41,002 nucleotides of DNA from Eggerthellaceae bacterium (GTDB lineage Bacteria; Actinomycetota; Coriobacteriia; Coriobacteriales; Eggerthellaceae), in contig JAFRLO010000005.1 of assembly GCA_017431165.1 (NCBI GenBank), positions 1 to 41,002 of the forward strand, read 5' to 3'. A program made the position numbers and the translations under genes. Numbering within the stretch: position 1 is the stretch's first letter; every line of letters starts with the position of its first letter. This document shows, one piece after another, positions 27,951 to 37,064 of the stretch. Under the pieces are notes generated by a model. It did no database searches, was not told the DNA's origin, and worked only from the letters and a program-made list of their open reading frames with translations.

Positions 27951-29705
27951 TCACGCTTGGTAGAGCGCTTGCGCATGAATGCCGAAGGTTTTTGCCATGC
28001 GATACCACAGATAGAGCCACTCGCCCACCGGGTCACCGGTCCGATCCTTATACAGGGCCCAAACGAACCAATAATACGCTGACAAACCTACATACGCCAT
28101 ACAATGGCGAATCTCCGAAGGATCGGGGTCGCGCTGGAAGTATTCTCGTATAGCATCTTCTGCCTCAGGGATGCCATAATCCGAGCAGCAGATGAACGTT
28201 CCCAAATCGCTCGCATAATCCGACATTGCGGAGTATTCCCAGTCGATGAGGTCCATACCCTCGGGATGAACGAGGAAATTGGGTGCGTAGAAATCGTTAT
28301 GGCACAGCACGAACGGAACATCATCCGATTTCACGCATTTGTTTAAGAATTCCGCACGCTCAGCAAGCTCATCGAAGTCGGCGAAGGATACCTTCCCAAG
28401 AAGTTCGACGATCTCAAGGGCATTCTGATACACATCGAACGTGAAACTCGACTTGGCGCCCGATTGATGCAGCTTTCTGCCGATAGCCATAGCTGTCCTA
28501 ACGTGCTCCACGTTGTGGTAATCGAATTCAATGCAGCCCTCGATGAAGCGGGAGATCTTCCATCCCGTCTTCGGATCCTCGAAAACGAACGTGCGGTCGA
28601 TGCCGAGATCGCGCGCGACGCCCTGCGAGTACGCTTCGCTTTCCCTGCTGATGATCGCATCGGTACCTGTTCCAGGATGGCGATACACATACGGAATGCC
28701 CTTGGCTTCAAAACGAACGGAAAGATTCGTGAGACCTTGTTTGATTGGCTCGAACTTCTTCACGTCATCGCGCTCGCATTCCAATACCGAGCAGATGTTG
28801 TCCAAAATCCCCGAATCAACGTTCTCGATGAAATGGGGATCGAATCCGCGAAGCTCATCGAGCGAGTCGAATTCCCAAATCGCGTCCGACGGGTATTTCC
28901 TGATGCGCATCGGGAGCTCGGGAATATGTTCGGCATAGATGTCTTCCCAGAGCTTGCCTGCTGTTTCTGGATTGTCGTATTCGCGTTCAAGGATTTCAAC
29001 GAATTTCTTCGCGTAGGATTCATCCCAATAAGCATGCCCGAGCATGACCCATGAATCCGCGCCCCCGACCTTCACATCAACGATCATACCACCTTTGCCT
29101 TTGGTGGTTAGACAATACTCATCGGTCGGTCCATTACGATATTCGGAGGCATAATATGAGTCGTAAACATACTTCTCGAAAGGATTGATGCTGAAGTAGT
29201 CGTCTGACGAGCAAATGTAGGTGTTACCCAAAATGCCCTCAACTCTCTTGATGGTAGAGTTGTTATTCCTCGTAGCATACTCATCGTTGGTGACAAGCTT
29301 GACGCCGAAGGCGTCTTCAAGATAGAAGAACTCCTCCTTCTTATAGCCGATGACAACGGTGATGTCATCGATTCCAGCATCCTTAAGCTGTTCGATCTGC
29401 CGCTCGATGAGAACCTCTCCGCGAACGGTGAGAACGCCCTTTGGGCGCTCATAGGAAATCGGCGCGAAGCGGGATGAAATGCCCGCAGCCATAATGACAG
29501 CATTCTTAACCTTATACGGCTCCAAAGCCGCGAAGCCTTCCACGCTCACAGCCCCCGAGGCGTCAAGAAGGCCTTGGGCAGTTAAAGACTTAATGGTGTT
29601 GTTGACAGTACCGATAGAAACGCTGTTTGCACTTGCAATCTCCCGTTGCGTGCGGCCGGGGTTCTTATACAGAGTGTTAAGCACGCAAAACTCGTTGTAA
29701 TTCAT
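27951..29705 (-). CDS. Winged-helix / LicC-like nucleotidyltransferase / LicA-like choline-ethanolamine kinase fusion (copy 1)
   Basis: The 584-aa protein joins three parts. Residues 1-60 form a winged helix (PGRTQREIASANSVSIGTVN with a wing to residue 60). Residues 65-300 form a sugar/choline-phosphate nucleotidyltransferase (AAGISSRFAP, ERPKGVLTVRG, ICSSDDYFS). Residues 310-584 form a choline/ethanolamine kinase of the aminoglycoside-phosphotransferase fold (LCHNDFYAPNFLV, LIDWEYSAMSDYASDLG). Two-domain LicCA proteins make CDP-choline in Treponema; the extra DNA-binding domain suggests a self-regulating enzyme. The ATG at 29705 has AGG 6 bases upstream; a TTG at 29720 is possible. It is preceded by a strong promoter wrapped in ATGTTC/GAACAT half-sites. 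Substrate (choline, ethanolamine or other) is inferred, not shown. Confidence 0.85.
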   Translation of the reverse strand: MNYNEFCVLNTLYKNPGRTQREIASANSVSIGTVNNTIKSLTAQGLLDASGAVSVEGFAALEPYKVKNAVIMAAGISSRFAPISYERPKGVLTVRGEVLIERQIEQLKDAGIDDITVVIGYKKEEFFYLEDAFGVKLVTNDEYATRNNNSTIKRVEGILGNTYICSSDDYFSINPFEKYVYDSYYASEYRNGPTDEYCLTTKGKGGMIVDVKVGGADSWVMLGHAYWDESYAKKFVEILEREYDNPETAGKLWEDIYAEHIPELPMRIRKYPSDAIWEFDSLDELRGFDPHFIENVDSGILDNICSVLECERDDVKKFEPIKQGLTNLSVRFEAKGIPYVYRHPGTGTDAIISRESEAYSQGVARDLGIDRTFVFEDPKTGWKISRFIEGCIEFDYHNVEHVRTAMAIGRKLHQSGAKSSFTFDVYQNALEIVELLGKVSFADFDELAERAEFLNKCVKSDDVPFVLCHNDFYAPNFLVHPEGMDLIDWEYSAMSDYASDLGTFICCSDYGIPEAEDAIREYFQRDPDPSEIRHCMAYVGLSAYYWFVWALYKDRTGDPVGEWLYLWYRMAKTFGIHAQALYQA

Positions 29706-29751
29706 AGAAATCCTGTTCAATAGAAAGCATCCATCAATGCACTATTGAGCG

Positions 29752-29794
29752 ATTGTATGTTCAGAAATTTTGAAAGTCAATAAATTGTGAACAT
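29752..29794 (-). promoter_or_regulatory. Promoter and operator of kinase fusion copy 1
   Basis: The minus strand has TTGACT (29775-29780), a 17-base spacer and TACAAT (29752-29757). The inverted half-sites ATGTTCA (29757-29763) and TGAACAT (29788-29794) bracket the -35; the first abuts the -10. A repressor bound there would block RNA polymerase. Matching half-sites occur upstream of kinase fusion copy 2 and of the phosphodiesterase gene. Confidence 0.65.
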
Positions 29795-29864
29795 CGCCAC
29801 GGACACGGCACAACATAGGCGTATTCGGGTGTATTCACAAATGAAATGGATTGTGGATATAGAT

Positions 29865-30641
29865 CTAATCGACTTCGAATGGATCGGTGCTTGAGCCGTA
29901 TGGCGTCCTTCCAGTATCGTTTAAATCGAAGATTTCGTTATAGAGACCGGTGAATCTTGTATCCCACCAACGGTCGACATGACAATGACCATGGAACCAC
30001 CGCTTAAACGAAAGACGGTCTGCAAGGCTTTGAAGCCAATCCGTATTGTCGTCAGGCTTAAGGATGAAAGGCCAATCCGGGTCGATCTCGCGCAATGCCG
30101 TTGACGGAGCATCGTGCGTAAGCACGTAATCAACATGCCAGTTGCAGGCTTCAAGTTGCTTTTCGGCATAATCGCGCTCTTCGGGACTAGGTACCTCCTG
30201 AGACCACCACGATTCCCCTTCAGTGCGTTTTGCCTTGTCAATCGAATGCGCACCGCCCATAGCGAAGAAGATAGAGCCATCAATATCAAAGGTTTCCCCG
30301 CGCATGAGATGCATGACGTGCTCGCGGATTCGCTGCACACGCCCTCCGTGCCACGTATCTATCGGGTATTGCTCAATGAGGTCGAAGTTCTCATGATTGC
30401 CATCGATCCAAAGGGTCGTGTAAGGCCGCGCTTCGAACCAATCGAGCCATCGCTCGTCTTCCTGCCATGCGAGATACGCATCCTCGCCCGCGGATTCCAG
30501 CGTACAAGGAGGTGTCCAGATGAATCCGAAATCACCTAGGATGATGAGGTAGTCATCCCGCGTTAGCCCATGATCGTCGAAACGAACGACCTTATCGATA
30601 TCGATGACGTTGTGGGTATCCCCCGTTAGGAAAACCGCCAA
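29865..30641 (-). CDS. Calcineurin-like metallophosphoesterase
   Basis: The 258-aa protein has all metal-binding blocks of the family: GDTHN (residue 7), LGDFGFIW, DGNHENFD, VLTHDAP and WFHGHCHVDR. It has no signal peptide and is probably cytosolic. It starts at TTG with only a weak GGGACGG upstream; no better start is available because the GDTH motif begins at once. It lies 42 bp downstream of the glycerophosphodiesterase gene and may be coexpressed with it. The substrate is not predictable; the context would fit a phosphomonoester or phosphodiester in phospholipid head-group turnover. Confidence 0.87.
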   Translation of the reverse strand: MAVFLTGDTHNVIDIDKVVRFDDHGLTRDDYLIILGDFGFIWTPPCTLESAGEDAYLAWQEDERWLDWFEARPYTTLWIDGNHENFDLIEQYPIDTWHGGRVQRIREHVMHLMRGETFDIDGSIFFAMGGAHSIDKAKRTEGESWWSQEVPSPEERDYAEKQLEACNWHVDYVLTHDAPSTALREIDPDWPFILKPDDNTDWLQSLADRLSFKRWFHGHCHVDRWWDTRFTGLYNEIFDLNDTGRTPYGSSTDPFEVD

Positions 30642-30683
30642 TGTGCAAACCGTCCCGTTCGAATCGAAGTAGCTTCGACTTGA

Positions 30684-31544
30684 TTACAGATGCGCTTCGA
30701 AGCTATCGAAGATGAATCCCTTAAACCCTTGGGCACGTGCTTCATCGAGCTCCGTCTGGCTCTTGAGCGTCCAGGCGAAGCAATCCAGATTCGAAAGCTT
30801 CTTCATGGCGGCGAATGTCAGCTGACCCGAGGACTTAAGTTCATAGGAAAGGAAATTCGGACGGCAAAGCACATTAGTGAACATGCCGGACAGCGCTATA
30901 CGGTTGATGATCGATTGCCCTTCGCCATCAGCGATGAAATCCTTAGAGAGGATGCCGCGCGGCACTTCGGGACGATTCTTCATCCACCACTGGAGCGCAA
31001 ATGGATTAAACGATTGCACGACATAGACGCCTTGATAGGAGTCGAGTTCTTCAGCGGTCTTGGCAGAAATCGTAGCCACATCATCTCCGGCTTCGCCCTT
31101 GATTTCCACAAGCAGCGGTACCTTGCCAGCAATCAGGTCGAGCACCTCGCGCAGCGTTGGAATATGCTCGTCAGTCCCGAAAACGCGACACTGGGCCAGC
31201 TCGGCATCGGTCATCTCCTCGACATTCTTATCAACGCCGCTCGTACGAAGAAGACTCTTATCATGCAGGACGACAGCGGTACCATCAGCTGTAACTTGCG
31301 TGTCGATTTCAATAGCATAGCCATGGTCGATTGCGCGTTGGAAAGCGGCGAGCGTGTTCTCGGGCGCGTCTGAGTCGTTATCGAAATAACCGCGATGCGC
31401 AATCGGCTGCTCAAAGAACGGTTGGAGCTTCTGCGTTGCCGGTTCACCGGGCATCTTCAAAAAAACGGTAGCCGCGAAAAGCACGACCACGATGACGCCC
31501 AATACGATTGGCCAACGCCTCTTCTTCGCATGCTTGCCTGCCAT
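30684..31544 (-). CDS. Membrane-anchored glycerophosphodiester phosphodiesterase
   Basis: The 286-aa product has a Lys/Arg-rich start followed by a single hydrophobic segment (about residues 13-29) and so is probably anchored with its catalytic domain outside. The GDPD domain has IAHRGYFDNDSDAPENTLAAF (catalytic His and Glu-Asn), IEIDTQVTADGTAVVLHD (metal-ligand Glu and Asp, catalytic His), VEIKGE and the C-terminal WTLKSQ segment. GDPDs release glycerol-3-phosphate and an alcohol such as ethanolamine or choline from deacylated phospholipids. The ATG at 31544 has AGGGGAG upstream. Its position between two kinase fusions and an EutH gene suggests it supplies head groups. Confidence 0.9.
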   Translation of the reverse strand: MAGKHAKKRRWPIVLGVIVVVLFAATVFLKMPGEPATQKLQPFFEQPIAHRGYFDNDSDAPENTLAAFQRAIDHGYAIEIDTQVTADGTAVVLHDKSLLRTSGVDKNVEEMTDAELAQCRVFGTDEHIPTLREVLDLIAGKVPLLVEIKGEAGDDVATISAKTAEELDSYQGVYVVQSFNPFALQWWMKNRPEVPRGILSKDFIADGEGQSIINRIALSGMFTNVLCRPNFLSYELKSSGQLTFAAMKKLSNLDCFAWTLKSQTELDEARAQGFKGFIFDSFEAHL

Positions 31545-31571
31545 CACGCTCCCCTTTCACGATACTTAAGC

Positions 31572-31597
31572 ATGTTCACTATACCATGATGGAACAT
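31572..31597 (-). promoter_or_regulatory. Promoter/operator of the phosphodiesterase-metallophosphoesterase pair
   Basis: An extended -10 (TGG-TATAGT, TATAGT at 31578-31583 on the minus strand) is flanked by ATGTTC (31572-31577) and GAACAT (31592-31597). These are the half-sites seen upstream of both kinase fusions but 14 bases apart, with centres about two helical turns apart. The remaining bases to 31655 show no gene. Confidence 0.5.
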
Positions 31598-31655
31598 CGC
31601 ACGTCGATGTGACGAAACTTGTGCATTATAGTTAGATCTTAATAGATGAAGATGA

Positions 31656-32702
31656 TTAATCGAGCTTCATATCGCCTTGCTGGATGAGACCCGCCTTGCG
31701 CATCGCGAAGGCAACGATCCAGCTGATGACTGCAGGAAGAACGAAGCATACGAGAAGCATACCGAGCCATTCGAAGGCGCCTGGCGTGATTCCATCTGCG
31801 ATCCACCCGCTGTACAGCCCGATAGGACCGACGAATCCGCAGGTGCCCATGCCGGACGCGATGGCAGGCCCGTTTTGCTGCATGGCGAAAACGCATGTTG
31901 CAATCGGTCCGCATACTGCAGCTGCCACGGTCGGCGGGACCCAAATCAAAGGTTTACGCATGATATTGCCCATCTGGAGCATCGAGGTTCCGATGCCCTG
32001 AGATACGATGCCTCCCCATCCGTTATCGATGAAGCTAATAACGGCAAAACCGACCATTTGCGCGCAACAGCCCGCGAGCGCGGCACCACCCGCAAGACCT
32101 GTCAGGCCAAGGGCAGCACAAATAGCAGCTGAAGAGATCGGAAGCGTCAACGCCATGCCGACGACCACTGCAACGAGGATGCCCATGAAGAAGGGTTGGA
32201 GTTCGGTTGCCCACATGATGAAGTTACCGATTGCGGTCGCGATGGCTCCGATGCCCGGCCCGATAAGAAGAGCAAGCGCGCAACCTAAGCCAACGGTGAC
32301 AGCAGGGGTCACCAAGATGTCAACCTTAGTCTCCTTTGAAACCACCATTCCGAGTTCTGCGGCGATAATGGCTATAACTAGCACGGCGAGCGGACCACCC
32401 GCGCCTCCTGCGGAATTAGCCGCATAGCCGACGACGGCAAGAGAGTATAAAACGAGCGGGGATGCCTTCAAAGCATATCCGATCGCGACCGCCATCGCAG
32501 GACCCGCGACCGCTGTCGCGAACGCGCCGATATCGTTGAATACCGTGACACCGGACAAGTTGCCGATCGTGTTGAAGATGGTGCCAATCAAAAGCGAGGC
32601 GAACAAACCTTGCGCCATAGCTGATAAAGCATCGATCGCATATCGCTGAAAGCTGATTTCGATGTCTTTACGCTTCAAGAAGTCTTTTACCGCTGCTGCC
32701 AC
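31656..32702 (-). CDS. PTS EIIC-like membrane protein without phosphotransferase partners
   Basis: A 348-aa, highly hydrophobic protein rich in Gly/Ala with about nine or ten predicted membrane segments. Its sequence pattern (IDALSAMAQGLFASLLIGTI near the start, ILVTPAVTVGLGCALALLIGP in the middle, MRKPLIWVPPTVAAAVCGPI, FVGPIGLYSGW) matches the PTS_EIIC_2 family, a distant EIIC group. No EIIA or EIIB gene lies next to it, as often in this family, so the transported substrate and energy source are open. I chose the GTG at 32702 (GAAGG upstream); a TTG at 32738 is the alternative. It is flanked by independent genes in the head-group region. Confidence 0.72.
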   Translation of the reverse strand: MAAAVKDFLKRKDIEISFQRYAIDALSAMAQGLFASLLIGTIFNTIGNLSGVTVFNDIGAFATAVAGPAMAVAIGYALKASPLVLYSLAVVGYAANSAGGAGGPLAVLVIAIIAAELGMVVSKETKVDILVTPAVTVGLGCALALLIGPGIGAIATAIGNFIMWATELQPFFMGILVAVVVGMALTLPISSAAICAALGLTGLAGGAALAGCCAQMVGFAVISFIDNGWGGIVSQGIGTSMLQMGNIMRKPLIWVPPTVAAAVCGPIATCVFAMQQNGPAIASGMGTCGFVGPIGLYSGWIADGITPGAFEWLGMLLVCFVLPAVISWIVAFAMRKAGLIQQGDMKLD

Positions 32703-32822
32703 GTACAACCCTTCTTTCTTTGCCCATCTACGCTTCAATTGTCGCAGAACTTGGACATGATTTGCCCATCGTAGGCGAAAGCGAAACGGTTAAGCGCTGA
32801 AAGGCACACTGATGACGAAAAG

Positions 32823-32854
32823 AAAGCGCAATGCGTATAATCGCATTGCGCTTT
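32823..32854 (-). terminator. Strong terminator of the kinase fusion 2-eutH operon
   Basis: A perfect 13-bp inverted repeat (AAAGCGCAATGCG, 6-base loop, CGCATTGCGCTTT) is followed on the minus strand by CTTTTC. It begins 32 bp after the eutH stop. The rest of the 183-bp gap to 32702 shows no gene. Confidence 0.8.
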
Positions 32855-32885
32855 ACTCTCTCGATGTTGCTGTCAAAAGAAGTGT

Positions 32886-34142
32886 CTAGCCTTCCATCAG
32901 CTCCTCAAGCACGTCGGCACTTTCCTCACTCTGGCCCTCCGCCAAAGCCTCCTCTTCCTCGAGCTGGCGTGCCTTCTTGAGAGCGAGCCAATATGTGAAC
33001 ACAACGGCAAGCACTGCAGCGACAAGCTTACCAATAAAGAGCGGAGCGATAAGCGTGGGCTGATACGTCGCGCAGAACGAAAGGTGATCACCGATAATGA
33101 ATGAGCCGCACACGGCGAATGCAGCCGTTTTCACTTTATCTTCAGCACGCATGTCCTTCATCATCGGGAAAAGGGCCAAGGCATTTGCCGCAGTTGCAAG
33201 GATACCGGCGATGGCAAGATCGCTTAGATGGAACAATCTTCCAATCGCGCCTAAAGGCTTAGCCAGATAGGTCCTGATGAGATAAACCATCGGGAATGCA
33301 CCCGCAAGCATCATCGCAACGCAACCTATGACCTCAACGCATTGCGAAAGGTGCTCGGCATCATACGCAATCAACGGCTCGAAACCCCAGCCCGTCCAAA
33401 TCAACGATGGCAAACCTGTAAACTGCTCGACGATGCTTATGATCAGTACGGTACGAGCGGCATAGTCGATGAACTTACCGAAAACGGTGAATCCTTTGAT
33501 CATCGCATTGGGAACAAGCTTCAATCCGATAGCGATGAGCACGCAGATGACCGTGAGCGGAATGAGGTTCGCGCACATCGGAAGCCACTGCATGGCGAGC
33601 TGGTATGTCGCCTCAGCATCTGCGCTAATGAACTCACGGATCATCGGTTCGGAGATAAGGCATATAGCACTGGCCACGAAGACGCCAATCGGAATAGAGA
33701 GGAAGCCGCACATGATGCCCAGAGCGAAATACTTCTGATCCTTCTGCTTGATCATGCGCAAACCGATTGGAACCGAATAGACGATCGTCGCTCCAGCCAT
33801 GAAACCAGTGAACATCGCCATGATCCAGCTTTCGCGCGTTGCCGCAAGGAGATCGGCAGACTGGTATCCACCCATATCGGTCGCGATGATGGTGGTCGAA
33901 GCGAGAGCGGGATCAGCACCAACCAACTGGAATGCAGGAAGAGAAACCATCTCAAGAAACGCCGACAAATAGGGAATCGAAGCGAAGATGCCGGCAACAG
34001 AAATGAAAATCGGGCCAAGAGCATAGATGCCCTCGACGAATTGCTGTCCCAGACCACTATTGGGCCTTACCATCGAGGCGATGCCGCCTGCGATCATGCA
34101 TGCCATCATGATGTAGACGATGATGGTACCTATAATTTCCAT
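32886..34142 (-). CDS. eutH: Ethanolamine permease EutH-like transporter
   Basis: A 418-aa polytopic membrane protein, about ten hydrophobic segments, with the EutH hallmark IIATDMGGYQSADLL in the first quarter and SFIIGDHLSFCATYQPT near the C-terminus, followed by a cytosolic acidic tail. EutH imports or facilitates diffusion of ethanolamine. No ethanolamine ammonia-lyase (eutBC) or microcompartment genes are nearby. It lies 48 bp after kinase fusion copy 2 in the same direction and shares its terminator, so it probably feeds a kinase rather than catabolism. The ATG has AAAGGA upstream. Transport of choline or a related amino alcohol is possible. Confidence 0.85.
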   Translation of the reverse strand: MEIIGTIIVYIMMACMIAGGIASMVRPNSGLGQQFVEGIYALGPIFISVAGIFASIPYLSAFLEMVSLPAFQLVGADPALASTTIIATDMGGYQSADLLAATRESWIMAMFTGFMAGATIVYSVPIGLRMIKQKDQKYFALGIMCGFLSIPIGVFVASAICLISEPMIREFISADAEATYQLAMQWLPMCANLIPLTVICVLIAIGLKLVPNAMIKGFTVFGKFIDYAARTVLIISIVEQFTGLPSLIWTGWGFEPLIAYDAEHLSQCVEVIGCVAMMLAGAFPMVYLIRTYLAKPLGAIGRLFHLSDLAIAGILATAANALALFPMMKDMRAEDKVKTAAFAVCGSFIIGDHLSFCATYQPTLIAPLFIGKLVAAVLAVVFTYWLALKKARQLEEEEALAEGQSEESADVLEELMEG

Positions 34143-34190
34143 AAGGTTCTTCCTTTCAAACGAAGCTGGAACACTTCAAAACGGTCAGGA

Positions 34191-35963
34191 TTACGATAGG
34201 TTGTAGAGTTCTTTGCTGAGTGCGAGGTAATGACATGCCTTGTGGTACCACATGCTCATGTCATCAACGACAGTGCCATGCCACTCCGTGTAAATCGCCC
34301 ATACGTACCAATACCAGAGACAAAGCGCGAGCACGGCATAATAGAAACGCACTTCCGCATCAGACAATTCATGCCCCTCATATGCGCTAGCGAGTGCAAG
34401 GTACTGTTCGTCCGAAAAGTCGAGGCTCACTGTATAGTCTGCGATATCCGCTGCGGGCCAATTCATTCCCGCATACTCCCAATCGATGAGGTGGATCTTC
34501 CCAGTATCCTCTTTAAGGAAGTTCCAGAACCATACGTCATTGTGGCAAAGCACCCTCTCATGCCCTTCGGCTTTTACTGCAGCGTCAAGCGCTTTCATCT
34601 CGTTATGCATATCGCTGAAGGCGGAGAAGTCGTAATGGTTTTTCTCGAGATGCCTAATGTAGAACTCGGAATTCGGAATGAAGTCCATCTCCCATTCGCA
34701 TGTCGCTTTGAGATCATGAAGCTTATGGATCATCTCTAAAGCAACTTTCTGATCGCCTTCGATGTCATACGGGTCGATGTAGTCATAATTCTCGATGCAT
34801 TTGCTGAGCTTGCAACCGGTTTTCGGATTTACTGAGACGATCGACTCGTCCAATCCGAGCTCCGCCGCGAGCTTTTCCGCCTGCGCTTCAGCCTCACGAC
34901 TCAAGAACAGCTCGGTTTGCTCGCCGGGATATCGGTAGATATATGGGCAACCATGTACTTCGAACTTGAAGGACACGTTCGTCAAACCGATCTTCATCGG
35001 TTCGAATTTCGACAAAACGGAAGGTGCGCATTCGAGTTGCTCGCAGATATCCGCGATGATTGCGGAATCGATGTTGTCATCGAAGCTTTCATCGAACTCG
35101 CGGACTTCGTCAAGCGAATCGAACTCGTAGATCACTCCCTCGCCATAAGGACGGGGATACATGTTGATCTTCTTCAGGCAGCCACCTAAAACCTCTTCCC
35201 AGAGCATCTGGGTCGTCGATTCCTTCCGATACTCCTTAACCAGATGCTTCTTGAATATGGCTGCATCCTTCTCAAGAAAACAGCATGGTCCAACCAGGCC
35301 ATACTCGTCCTCCGAATACATGCGAAACTCGATGAATTTGCCACGTTCATTAGCTGTATACCCGAATTCGGTCGTAAGACCCTTGACCATCTTCGTCGTA
35401 TAGTTCGACGTATAAGAATACTTTTCGAAGATGTTCTCCGCGAAATAGTGGTCAGAGGCACACACGTACGTGTTGTGCAGCTTGTCTAAGACCAGCATTA
35501 AAGATGAAGTATTGTTCTTTTGCCGGTACTCGGGATTCTCGATGAAATCGACCCCGTATTTTTCACGCAGATAGAAGAATTTCTCACGCATGTAGCCAAC
35601 GACGATCGTTATGTCCTCGACACCAATCTCGCGAAGCTGAAGGATCTGCCGCTCGATAAGGGGCATTCCTTTAACGACAAGCAAGCCTTTCGGCTTTTCA
35701 ATCGATAAAGGAAGGAATCGCGTCGAGGAGCCCGCTGCAAGAATAATCGCATTCTTGATACGATACGGCTCAATCGCCTGATAGCCTGCTTCGGTTACAC
35801 CGTATGATTCATCGATGTACCCTTCAAAAAGCAACTCGTTAATCGCAGTGTTCACAGTACCAAGTGACAGACCGCTCGCATTGGCGATCGCGCGCTGTGA
35901 ATCAAATGGTTTAGAAGCAAGGACGCATTGCTTCAATACCTCAAAATTCCGCCTTTTCAACAT
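34191..35963 (-). CDS. Winged-helix / LicC-like nucleotidyltransferase / LicA-like kinase fusion (copy 2)
   Basis: A 590-aa paralogue of the 27951-29705 product with the same three-part order. The winged helix covers residues 1-63 (PFDSQRAIANASGLSLGTVN). The nucleotidyltransferase (about 68-305) has AAGSSTRFLPLS, EKPKGLLVVKG and CASDHYFAE, where copy 1 has SSDDYF. The kinase (about 320-590) has LCHNDVWFWNFLKE and HLIDWEYAGMNWPAADIAD. The ATG has AAGGA 6 bases upstream and an in-frame stop four codons before it, so the start is firm. It is cotranscribed with eutH. The leader contains a tandem repeat. The different residues in the two nucleotidyltransferase sites may mean different substrates. 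Confidence 0.85.
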   Translation of the reverse strand: MLKRRNFEVLKQCVLASKPFDSQRAIANASGLSLGTVNTAINELLFEGYIDESYGVTEAGYQAIEPYRIKNAIILAAGSSTRFLPLSIEKPKGLLVVKGMPLIERQILQLREIGVEDITIVVGYMREKFFYLREKYGVDFIENPEYRQKNNTSSLMLVLDKLHNTYVCASDHYFAENIFEKYSYTSNYTTKMVKGLTTEFGYTANERGKFIEFRMYSEDEYGLVGPCCFLEKDAAIFKKHLVKEYRKESTTQMLWEEVLGGCLKKINMYPRPYGEGVIYEFDSLDEVREFDESFDDNIDSAIIADICEQLECAPSVLSKFEPMKIGLTNVSFKFEVHGCPYIYRYPGEQTELFLSREAEAQAEKLAAELGLDESIVSVNPKTGCKLSKCIENYDYIDPYDIEGDQKVALEMIHKLHDLKATCEWEMDFIPNSEFYIRHLEKNHYDFSAFSDMHNEMKALDAAVKAEGHERVLCHNDVWFWNFLKEDTGKIHLIDWEYAGMNWPAADIADYTVSLDFSDEQYLALASAYEGHELSDAEVRFYYAVLALCLWYWYVWAIYTEWHGTVVDDMSMWYHKACHYLALSKELYNLS

Positions 35964-36002
35964 AGTGTTTCCTTAGGTTTCGCTAATTAATCTATGAAAT
36001 TG

Positions 36003-36086
36003 TAGGTAGTGCTAGGTAGTGCTAGGTAGTGCTAGGTAGTGCTAGGCAGTGCTAGGTAGGTAGTGCTAGGTAGTGCTAGGTAGTGC
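36003..36086. repeat. Tandem 10-bp repeat, eight copies, in the kinase fusion 2 leader
   Basis: The unit TAGGTAGTGC occurs four times from 36003 to 36042, once with a C for T (36043-36052), then after a 4-base partial unit (TAGG, 36053-36056) three more times (36057-36086). The array ends 40 bp before the start codon and lies between promoter and gene, so it is transcribed as GCACTACCTA repeats. A near-perfect short-unit array of this kind is prone to slippage. Confidence 0.95.
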
Positions 36087-36131
36087 AAATGCCGCGTTAA
36101 AACACTTAGAACCCAAAACGCAGCATGTGCA

Positions 36132-36179
36132 ATAATACATGATGTTCATTTTTGTTGCTAACAAAACATATAATGAACA
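36132..36179 (-). promoter_or_regulatory. Promoter and operator of the kinase fusion 2-eutH operon
   Basis: Half-sites ATGTTCA (36142-36148) and TGAACA (36174-36179) are almost the same as those before copy 1 and 25 bases apart. Inside lies a second perfect inverted repeat, TTTTGTT-GCT-AACAAAA (36150-36166). A minus-strand -10 candidate TATTAT (36132-36137) with TTAGCA 18 bases upstream would start RNA near 36125, a leader of about 160 bases containing the tandem repeat. The AT-rich stretch 36180-36321 shows no gene or further structure that I can support. Confidence 0.5.
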
Positions 36180-36321
36180 ATATATTATTCGGCGAAGAAC
36201 AGCTGTCAATTGAACTCTTCCTCAGGAATCTTCTTTACCCAAAACGAAACTAAAAATTGCCGATTAAACATGCAATGATTATTTATCTGAAGAATTAGCT
36301 TGGTATCCGATTCCGAATAGC

Positions 36322-36356
36322 AAAATGCGGCAGCTCGCAATAGTGAACTGCCGCAT
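36322..36356 (-). terminator. Intrinsic terminator of the MarR gene
   Basis: ATGCGGCAG pairs with CTGCCGCAT around a 14-base loop (arms 36348-36356 and 36325-36333) and is followed on the minus strand by TTTTG. It lies 40 bp after the MarR stop codon. Confidence 0.75.
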
Positions 36357-36396
36357 ACATGGTTGGAAATAGATTCGTTTATTTTAAAGCGATCCC

Positions 36397-37044
36397 CTAT
36401 GATTCGGACTTATCCATGTCATCCTCCGATTGCTTGCAACAGCGACCATGAGGACGCGGGCGATGCTTTTCAAGTTCGGCACCTATCTTATCGAGAATGC
36501 CACCCAATTGTTCCTTCTCTTCCTCGGAGAGGATTGCAAGGATATCGGTTGCTGCAAGCGCATGACGTTCTGCGATCTCGGCGGCATGGGTACGTCCAGC
36601 GTCCGTCAGCCAGACCTCGATAGCACGTCCATCGGTTTCAGACTTTTTCCGCTCAACCATCTCGAATTCCTCGAGCTTCTGAAGCATAGCGCCAAGGGTT
36701 TGCGGACGGATTCCAAGCAAAAATGCAAGTTCCTTCTGGTTAATACCTTCTTTCATGGCAACAGCAGTCAGCACACGAGCCTGCCCTTGACGATGACCTC
36801 CCCTACGAGGTCCATGACCGTGACCGTGTCCGTGGCACACATGCGATTCGGGAGCGCCTTCGGCTGGAAACTCAGGATGCCCCTCTGGCCCGCAAGGACG
36901 AGCAGACCCGCCATGGTGGGCATGCGGACCCTTATGTCCATGATGACCATGCTTCTTACAGAACGGACCCCCGTTATCGATATGACGCAAGATCATTCCG
37001 GTACGAACAAGCTTATCCATAAGTTCTTCGTTGTTGATAGCCAT
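36397..37044 (-). CDS. MarR-family regulator with a His-rich N-terminal insert
   Basis: The 215-aa protein has a MarR winged helix (about residues 88-165: RVLTAVAMKEGINQKELAFL, RPQTLGAMLQKLEEFEMVER and KKSETDGRAIEVWLTDAG). Between helix 1 and the winged helix it carries a 50-residue segment rich in His, Gly and Cys (HGHHGHKGPHAHH, CHGHGHGHGPRRGGHRQG), a plausible metal- or haem-binding tether. The tail has a further HGRCC. The ATG at 37044 has AAAGGAAG upstream. Its promoter is covered by palindromes, so it likely represses itself; no other target is obvious within the window. Confidence 0.87.
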   Translation of the reverse strand: MAINNEELMDKLVRTGMILRHIDNGGPFCKKHGHHGHKGPHAHHGGSARPCGPEGHPEFPAEGAPESHVCHGHGHGHGPRRGGHRQGQARVLTAVAMKEGINQKELAFLLGIRPQTLGAMLQKLEEFEMVERKKSETDGRAIEVWLTDAGRTHAAEIAERHALAATDILAILSEEEKEQLGGILDKIGAELEKHRPRPHGRCCKQSEDDMDKSES

Positions 37045-37064
37045 ATTGCTTCCTTTCAATTAAT

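Follow-up and report, generated by a model that had tools for sequence, protein, structure and literature searches.

Why should a protein that appears to activate an amino alcohol carry a DNA-binding domain at its N-terminus? The question is raised by a contig of an Eggerthellaceae bacterium (the whole stretch of 41,002 nucleotides that was analysed is herein referred to as the window), in which two genes on the minus strand, fusion 1 (27951-29720) and fusion 2 (34191-35963), each encode, in one polypeptide, a winged helix followed by a LicC-like cytidylyltransferase and a LicA-like kinase. As the best explanation we propose, and regard as quite probable, that each fusion is an enzyme-repressor of the NadR type that feeds LicD-type decoration of the cell surface. 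The C-terminal kinase would phosphorylate an imported amino alcohol, with ethanolamine or choline as the most likely one, the central domain would join the phosphate ester to cytidine monophosphate (CMP) from cytidine triphosphate (CTP), and the N-terminal winged helix, probably in dimeric form, would bind the inverted repeat TGTTCA-N24/25-TGAACA at the promoters of the fusion's own gene and of the permease that belongs to it. The resulting cytidine diphosphate (CDP)-amino-alcohol would be used by LicD-type transferases for decoration of a surface glycan.

Domains and catalytic residues of the fusions

Fusion 1 forms a single open frame of 589 amino acids (aa) from a TTG start, an ATG at 29702 being a possible alternative, and fusion 2 a single open frame of 590 aa, which is divergent (39% identity to fusion 1) and lies directly upstream of eutH. 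The winged helix of fusion 1 (aa 1-70; 29511-29720, minus strand) was recognised by Pfam as MarR_2 (aa 6-53, 35.2 bits, cut-off 27) and that of fusion 2 as HTH_24 (23.8 bits, cut-off 21.9), in both cases above the family cut-off. The cytidylyltransferase domain of fusion 1 (aa 70-300; 28821-29513, minus strand) matches NTP_transf_3 from aa 74 and its kinase domain (aa 301-589; 27954-28820, minus strand) matches Choline_kinase/APH at aa 324-544, while in fusion 2 NTP_transf_3 and Choline_kinase (61.4 bits) were detected. For both proteins the closest solved cytidylyltransferase is LicC of Streptococcus pneumoniae (1jyk), with E values of 4e-38 for fusion 1 and 2e-31 for fusion 2, and the closest solved kinases are the choline kinases 4r77 and 3dxq (E 3e-25 to 8e-20). 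The AlphaFold2 model of fusion 1 (predicted local distance difference test [pLDDT] 93.3, predicted template modelling score [pTM] 0.83) shares the folds of LicC (1jyl; Z 32.3 over 228 residues) and LicA (4r7b; Z 27.1 over 279 residues), and places the helices of the winged helix at residues 8-19, 25-32 and 36-48, with pLDDT of 93-96 from residue 11 on. The winged helix alone had no match among the fold-search matches listed, which the two enzyme domains fill, and this is not counter-evidence to its fold.

The catalytic residues were taken from PMC6697681 for LicC and from PMC4364537 for LicA. In both fusions the catalytic residues K28, D107 and E216 of LicC and T29, D176, N181, D194 and E196 of LicA are retained. 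The three-domain composition given in a preliminary description of the window is thus borne out by reading frames, Pfam, fold and catalytic residues, and the folds and catalytic residues agree with the role in CDP-amino-alcohol synthesis that it had predicted. The same description took the pathway to be peculiar to this lineage, which is not the case, since the three-domain form was found in Coriobacteriia, Actinomyces, Gemella, Streptococcus oralis, Clostridia and on a Lacticaseibacillus plasmid. The database records that were inspected name such proteins just 'phosphotransferase' or 'NTP transferase domain-containing protein', and no description of a winged-helix LicC-LicA protein was found in the open-access literature, subscription papers being outside the scope of the search. 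The guanitoxin kinase GntI was considered as a family name and rejected (65-72 bits against a cut-off of 357). Some fusions are adjoined by shorter paralogues with a nucleotidyltransferase and no kinase domain (L051 9942-10913, L052 11481-12395, L048 9540-10328 and L047 8743-9558), among which Pfam recognises the winged helix in L051.

Inverted repeat, regulon and permeases

An inverted repeat precedes both fusions, TGTTCA-N24-TGAACA at 29758-29793 (minus strand) for fusion 1 and TGTTCA-N25-TGAACA at 36143-36179 (minus strand) for the fusion 2-eutH operon, each an exact match in the genome-wide scan. The repeat of fusion 1 brackets a sigma-70-like promoter (29752-29780, minus strand; TTGACT, spacing 17, TACAAT), a consensus match for which shuffles give 0.8, and its -10 element lies beside the end of the downstream operator half; the position of the fusion 2 promoter is uncertain, the repeat sitting upstream of the gene. 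The leader of fusion 2 carries, between operator 2 and the start codon (36003-36086) and inside the accessory segment described below, a 10-bp sequence (TAGGTAGTGC) present in eight tandem copies. Within the part of the own genome that was scanned (1.2 Mb, 66.6% complete), the exact motif occurs at three places and its backward-pattern control at none; the relaxed motif occurs at four, the fourth being GC-rich, and its control gives two. GC-rich matches were discarded as operators, as composition and recurrence, the only criteria applied, make them look like chance matches or conserved coding sequence, and TGTTCC-N12-TGAACA before the GDPD gene (about 31600-31570) was not counted because of its other spacing.

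The repeat that precedes the two window fusions was also found upstream of fusions in related genera and, altogether, near 55 of 102 fusions, against 0.27 expected from dinucleotide shuffles. It spans Actinomycetota and Bacillota, with occurrences in Coriobacteriia, clostridia, streptococci and on a Lacticaseibacillus plasmid. In fusion 1 the recognition helix reads ..SIGTVNNTIK.., and classification of the fusions by this helix gave the repeat near 54 of 63 of the ..N type, 1 of 29 of the ..S type and none of the 8 with no recognisable helix motif. In permease-first operons the repeat, sometimes in the form TGCTCA..TGAGCA, stands in front of the permease gene or of the small gene that precedes it (19 of 21, with 0.135 expected). 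Since many ..S-type fusions, those of clostridia, lie in such operons and have the repeat there, the gap between the two types reflects largely gene order and not missing sites. Two fusions with an altered helix (GLATVN) have a matching GTTCG half-site, few as these cases are. At the operator of fusion 1 the half-sites are retained and the spacers changed in two congeners, and across three congeneric genomes the spacers diverge while the half-sites are kept, which supports selection on the half-sites. Self-regulation by the fusions, a guess of the preliminary description, is well supported by this conservation of putative sites across phyla. We infer that the fusion itself binds the repeat, that binding represses, and that a ligand releases or strengthens this binding.

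The third exact site in the own genome (contig C2), conserved in both congeners, precedes the genes for a 65-aa membrane protein and an NCS1 permease, and in clostridia the fusion has a comparable pair next to it, a small protein and an NCS1 permease. Small membrane proteins of similar sequence, encoded directly upstream of the NCS1 permease in L053 (5796-5993, minus strand, 65 aa) and in clostridial loci such as L109, L113 and L116, were assigned to no Pfam family. In two further genomes (G346 and G271) the motif also stands before genes whose products are substrate-binding proteins closest to the 2-aminoethylphosphonate type, below the curated cut-off. The regulon predicted for the own genome comprises fusion 1, the accessory operon of fusion 2 and eutH, and, on another contig, the small membrane protein with its NCS1 permease. 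Of 103 fusions, 78 have a gene for an EamA-, NCS1- or EutH-family permease within 1.5 kb, part of the fusion copies in this tally being labelled by hand. The EamA permease is linked in many relatives; in the window the linked permease is instead EutH, of the ethanolamine permease family (32886-34142, minus strand; PF04346, 380.9 bits), 48 bp downstream of fusion 2. Among 22 related genomes 4 encode EutH, every time beside a fusion, and EutB (ethanolamine ammonia-lyase) was found in none of 20 genomes (the own genome being 66.6% complete), which together argues for uptake into synthesis and not for catabolism.

Substrate and destination of the activated compound

The preliminary description had made the pathway depend on the presence in the genome of enzymes using CDP-amino-alcohols, and such a candidate, LicD, is encoded in the own genome (G000:C42:7987-8667). 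In a phylum sample of 396 genomes LicD was detected in all 18 fusion genomes versus 10 of 378 others, and within the order in 18 of 18 versus 1 of 17. Many fusions sit in surface-polysaccharide clusters together with LicD, glycosyltransferases and a flippase-like gene; on the Lacticaseibacillus paracasei plasmid rhamnose genes are followed, in this order, by LicD, the fusion, a nucleotidyltransferase and a BCCT transporter, and the repeat lies where the fusion begins. One LicD-family transferase, mf1, accepts CDP-ethanolamine (PMC11982090).

With respect to the substrate, the phosphocholine contacts of LicC are changed in both window copies, D105 to S and W136 to Y in fusion 1 and to A and F, respectively, in fusion 2, and D192 to E. 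In the kinase, fusion 1 has C at E213 and Y at V178 of LicA, and keeps the choline-pocket aromatics Y197, W251 and W254; the pocket of fusion 2 is unusual, with S213 and W178 in addition to A105 and F136. The EamA-linked actinobacterial fusions carry mostly F178/W136, and the EutH/NCS1-linked Eggerthellaceae copies and an NCS1-linked bacillar group mostly Y178/Y136, a relation of permease to pocket from which a large clostridial group departs. In the tree, fusion 1 clusters with the EutH/NCS1-linked Eggerthellaceae copies (Shimodaira-Hasegawa-like approximate likelihood ratio test [SH-aLRT] 97). Taken together, pocket residues, tree grouping and linkage to EutH favour ethanolamine, which, as far as sequence can indicate, is somewhat likelier than choline to be the substrate in the window.

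That the same enzyme-repressor instead makes CDP-choline in the window, as in the Lic-1 pathway, we consider possible and clearly less likely. The closest solved relatives act on choline, the LicA aromatics are retained, many relatives have an EamA permease (the family in which LicB is placed) and keep W136 of LicC, and the plasmid copy adjoins a BCCT transporter; on the other hand, the window copy shares the Y178/Y136 pocket of the EutH- and NCS1-linked copies with which it clusters, the permease of the cassette is EutH, and E213 of LicA, the contact of the quaternary amine (PMC4364537), is replaced by C or S. The two window copies need not agree in substrate, and we tentatively consider, with slightly more weight than choline, that fusion 2 has diverged to another substrate or serves mainly as a sensor, a reading compatible with that preferred for fusion 1. 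Its very long branch (2.94, with unsure placement), unusual pocket and accessory presence point in this direction, against which stand the intact catalytic residues and operator and the location of eutH directly downstream. A membrane phospholipid instead of a surface glycan as the destination, in line with the CDP-choline lipid synthesis of Treponema denticola as cited in PMC7368946, appears improbable in view of the co-occurrence of LicD with the fusion. Moreover, two CDP-alcohol transferase genes are shared by related genomes with and without the fusion, and this genus has one more, which adjoins a phosphatidylserine decarboxylase-like gene and therefore reads as PssA of a PssA-Psd-like pair; no CDP-alcohol transferase assignable to the fusion pathway was seen, and lipid head groups, named earlier as a target, are thus not supported.

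As to regulation, it is equally improbable that the winged helix is only structural or dimerising and that a separate regulator reads the repeat. A MarR-type gene lies nearby (36397-37059), and operator binding by the fusion is deduced from sequence; the site, however, follows the fusion across phyla and gene orders with no shared second regulator seen, is missing where the helix motif is not recognisable, and has changed to match in the two GLATVN copies. Several points weigh against the proposed enzyme-repressor. The 102 loci are related by descent, so that the above counts are not independent events; nine ..N-type fusions, some of them inside longer operons, lack the motif in the searched stretch; another protein could read the repeat; and LicD of the own genome lies on another contig and not near the fusions. 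In addition, the amine contacts D105 and D192 of LicC are not retained, and for this reason the compound that is activated could be neither phosphocholine nor phosphoethanolamine but another one. The enzyme-repressor feeding LicD-type decoration nevertheless remains our preferred explanation.

Gene neighbourhood and comparison with known systems

Operator 2, fusion 2 and eutH together form an accessory segment (32818-36386) that is absent at the syntenic place in two congeners, the alignment to which breaks at 32817/36387 (L155) and 32991/36920 (L156). Both congeners carry fusion 1 only, which is the core copy in the genus, and the two fusions around a scavenging set do not constitute the unit earlier supposed. 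A plasmid search with fusion 2 gave no close copy (best 40% identity), and a search of phage records with fusion 1 likewise gave none, with 28-35% identity in unannotated faecal contigs; hence no vehicle for the cassette was found. Between the fusions, besides EutH, the GDPD (30684-31547, minus strand; PF03009, 91.9 bits) has an N-terminal hydrophobic stretch and a possible role in head-group release, and the membrane protein is of the PTS_EIIC_2 family (31656-32738, minus strand; PF13303, 291 bits); the phosphoesterase (29865-30641, minus strand) is a possible calcineurin-like one, with a PF00149 match of 18.9 bits, below the cut-off. These three accompany fusion 1 at the level of the genus and were not seen to recur as conserved partners of fusions elsewhere. 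Near other fusions, a TagD-like cytidylyltransferase fused to a GFO/IDH-type oxidoreductase (L049 12296-14728, L065 5443-7875 and L055 9449-10804), adjoined by a PhnW-like aminotransferase in L049 and L065, possibly provides a second CDP-activated surface substituent. Octopine-dehydrogenase-like and amidohydrolase genes lie beside fusions in L069 and L048, and the amidohydrolase only in L068; the L069 fusion shows neither a recognisable helix motif nor an operator.

Host recognition and persistence are matters on which the phosphocholine and phosphoethanolamine of bacterial surfaces have a bearing, and the sensing of supply by lic-type pathways is little known. If the proposal is true, one protein couples uptake, activation and gene control, the pathway can readily be found by fusion plus operator, and transporters are predicted, namely NCS1 with its small partner, EutH in an anabolic role and 2-aminoethylphosphonate-like ABC systems; the parallel to NadR would be direct. 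In its widest form, for which our confidence falls somewhat short of even, an as yet unrecognised trifunctional enzyme-repressor family might control ethanolamine uptake and CDP-activation for LicD-dependent surface decoration in gut Actinomycetota and Bacillota alike, the operator code being common to both phyla, and NCS1-family permeases would, together with their small membrane partner, constitute a new kind of amino-alcohol transporter.

Among known systems, PntC-AEPT and other LicC-like phosphonate-tailoring fusions (PMC6697681) also join a LicC-like domain to a second enzyme, and Tde-PntC has Glu at the D192 position as in the window. Their partner is, however, an aminotransferase, with neither kinase nor winged helix, and the D105 position is Ser or Ala in the window and not Glu. 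Ethanolamine catabolism (eut) differs in that EutH stands here beside fusions in genomes where EutB was not detected. The Lic-1 system (LicA, LicB, LicC and LicD) of S. pneumoniae and Haemophilus influenzae resembles the window in kinase and cytidylyltransferase folds, catalytic residues, permease linkage and the presence of LicD in the genome; LicA and LicC are, however, separate there and have no DNA-binding domain, whereas in the window they are united in one protein that carries a winged helix and has a conserved operator, the regulon permease is EutH or NCS1 and not of the EamA type, and the amine contacts of LicC differ. LicCA of Treponema combines LicC and LicA activities in one protein that feeds phosphatidylcholine synthesis and is, to our knowledge, without a winged helix. 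In NadR of enterobacteria the order of domains is repressor, NMN (nicotinamide mononucleotide) adenylyltransferase and ribosylnicotinamide kinase. As in the window, DNA-binding, nucleotidyltransferase and kinase functions are united in one chain, in a salvage pathway with linked transport (PMC7221760). The catalytic families and the pathway are unrelated, the domains of the window being LicC- and LicA-like, and the relation is one of analogy and not of homology: the fusion would work like NadR and use the chemistry of the Lic pathway.

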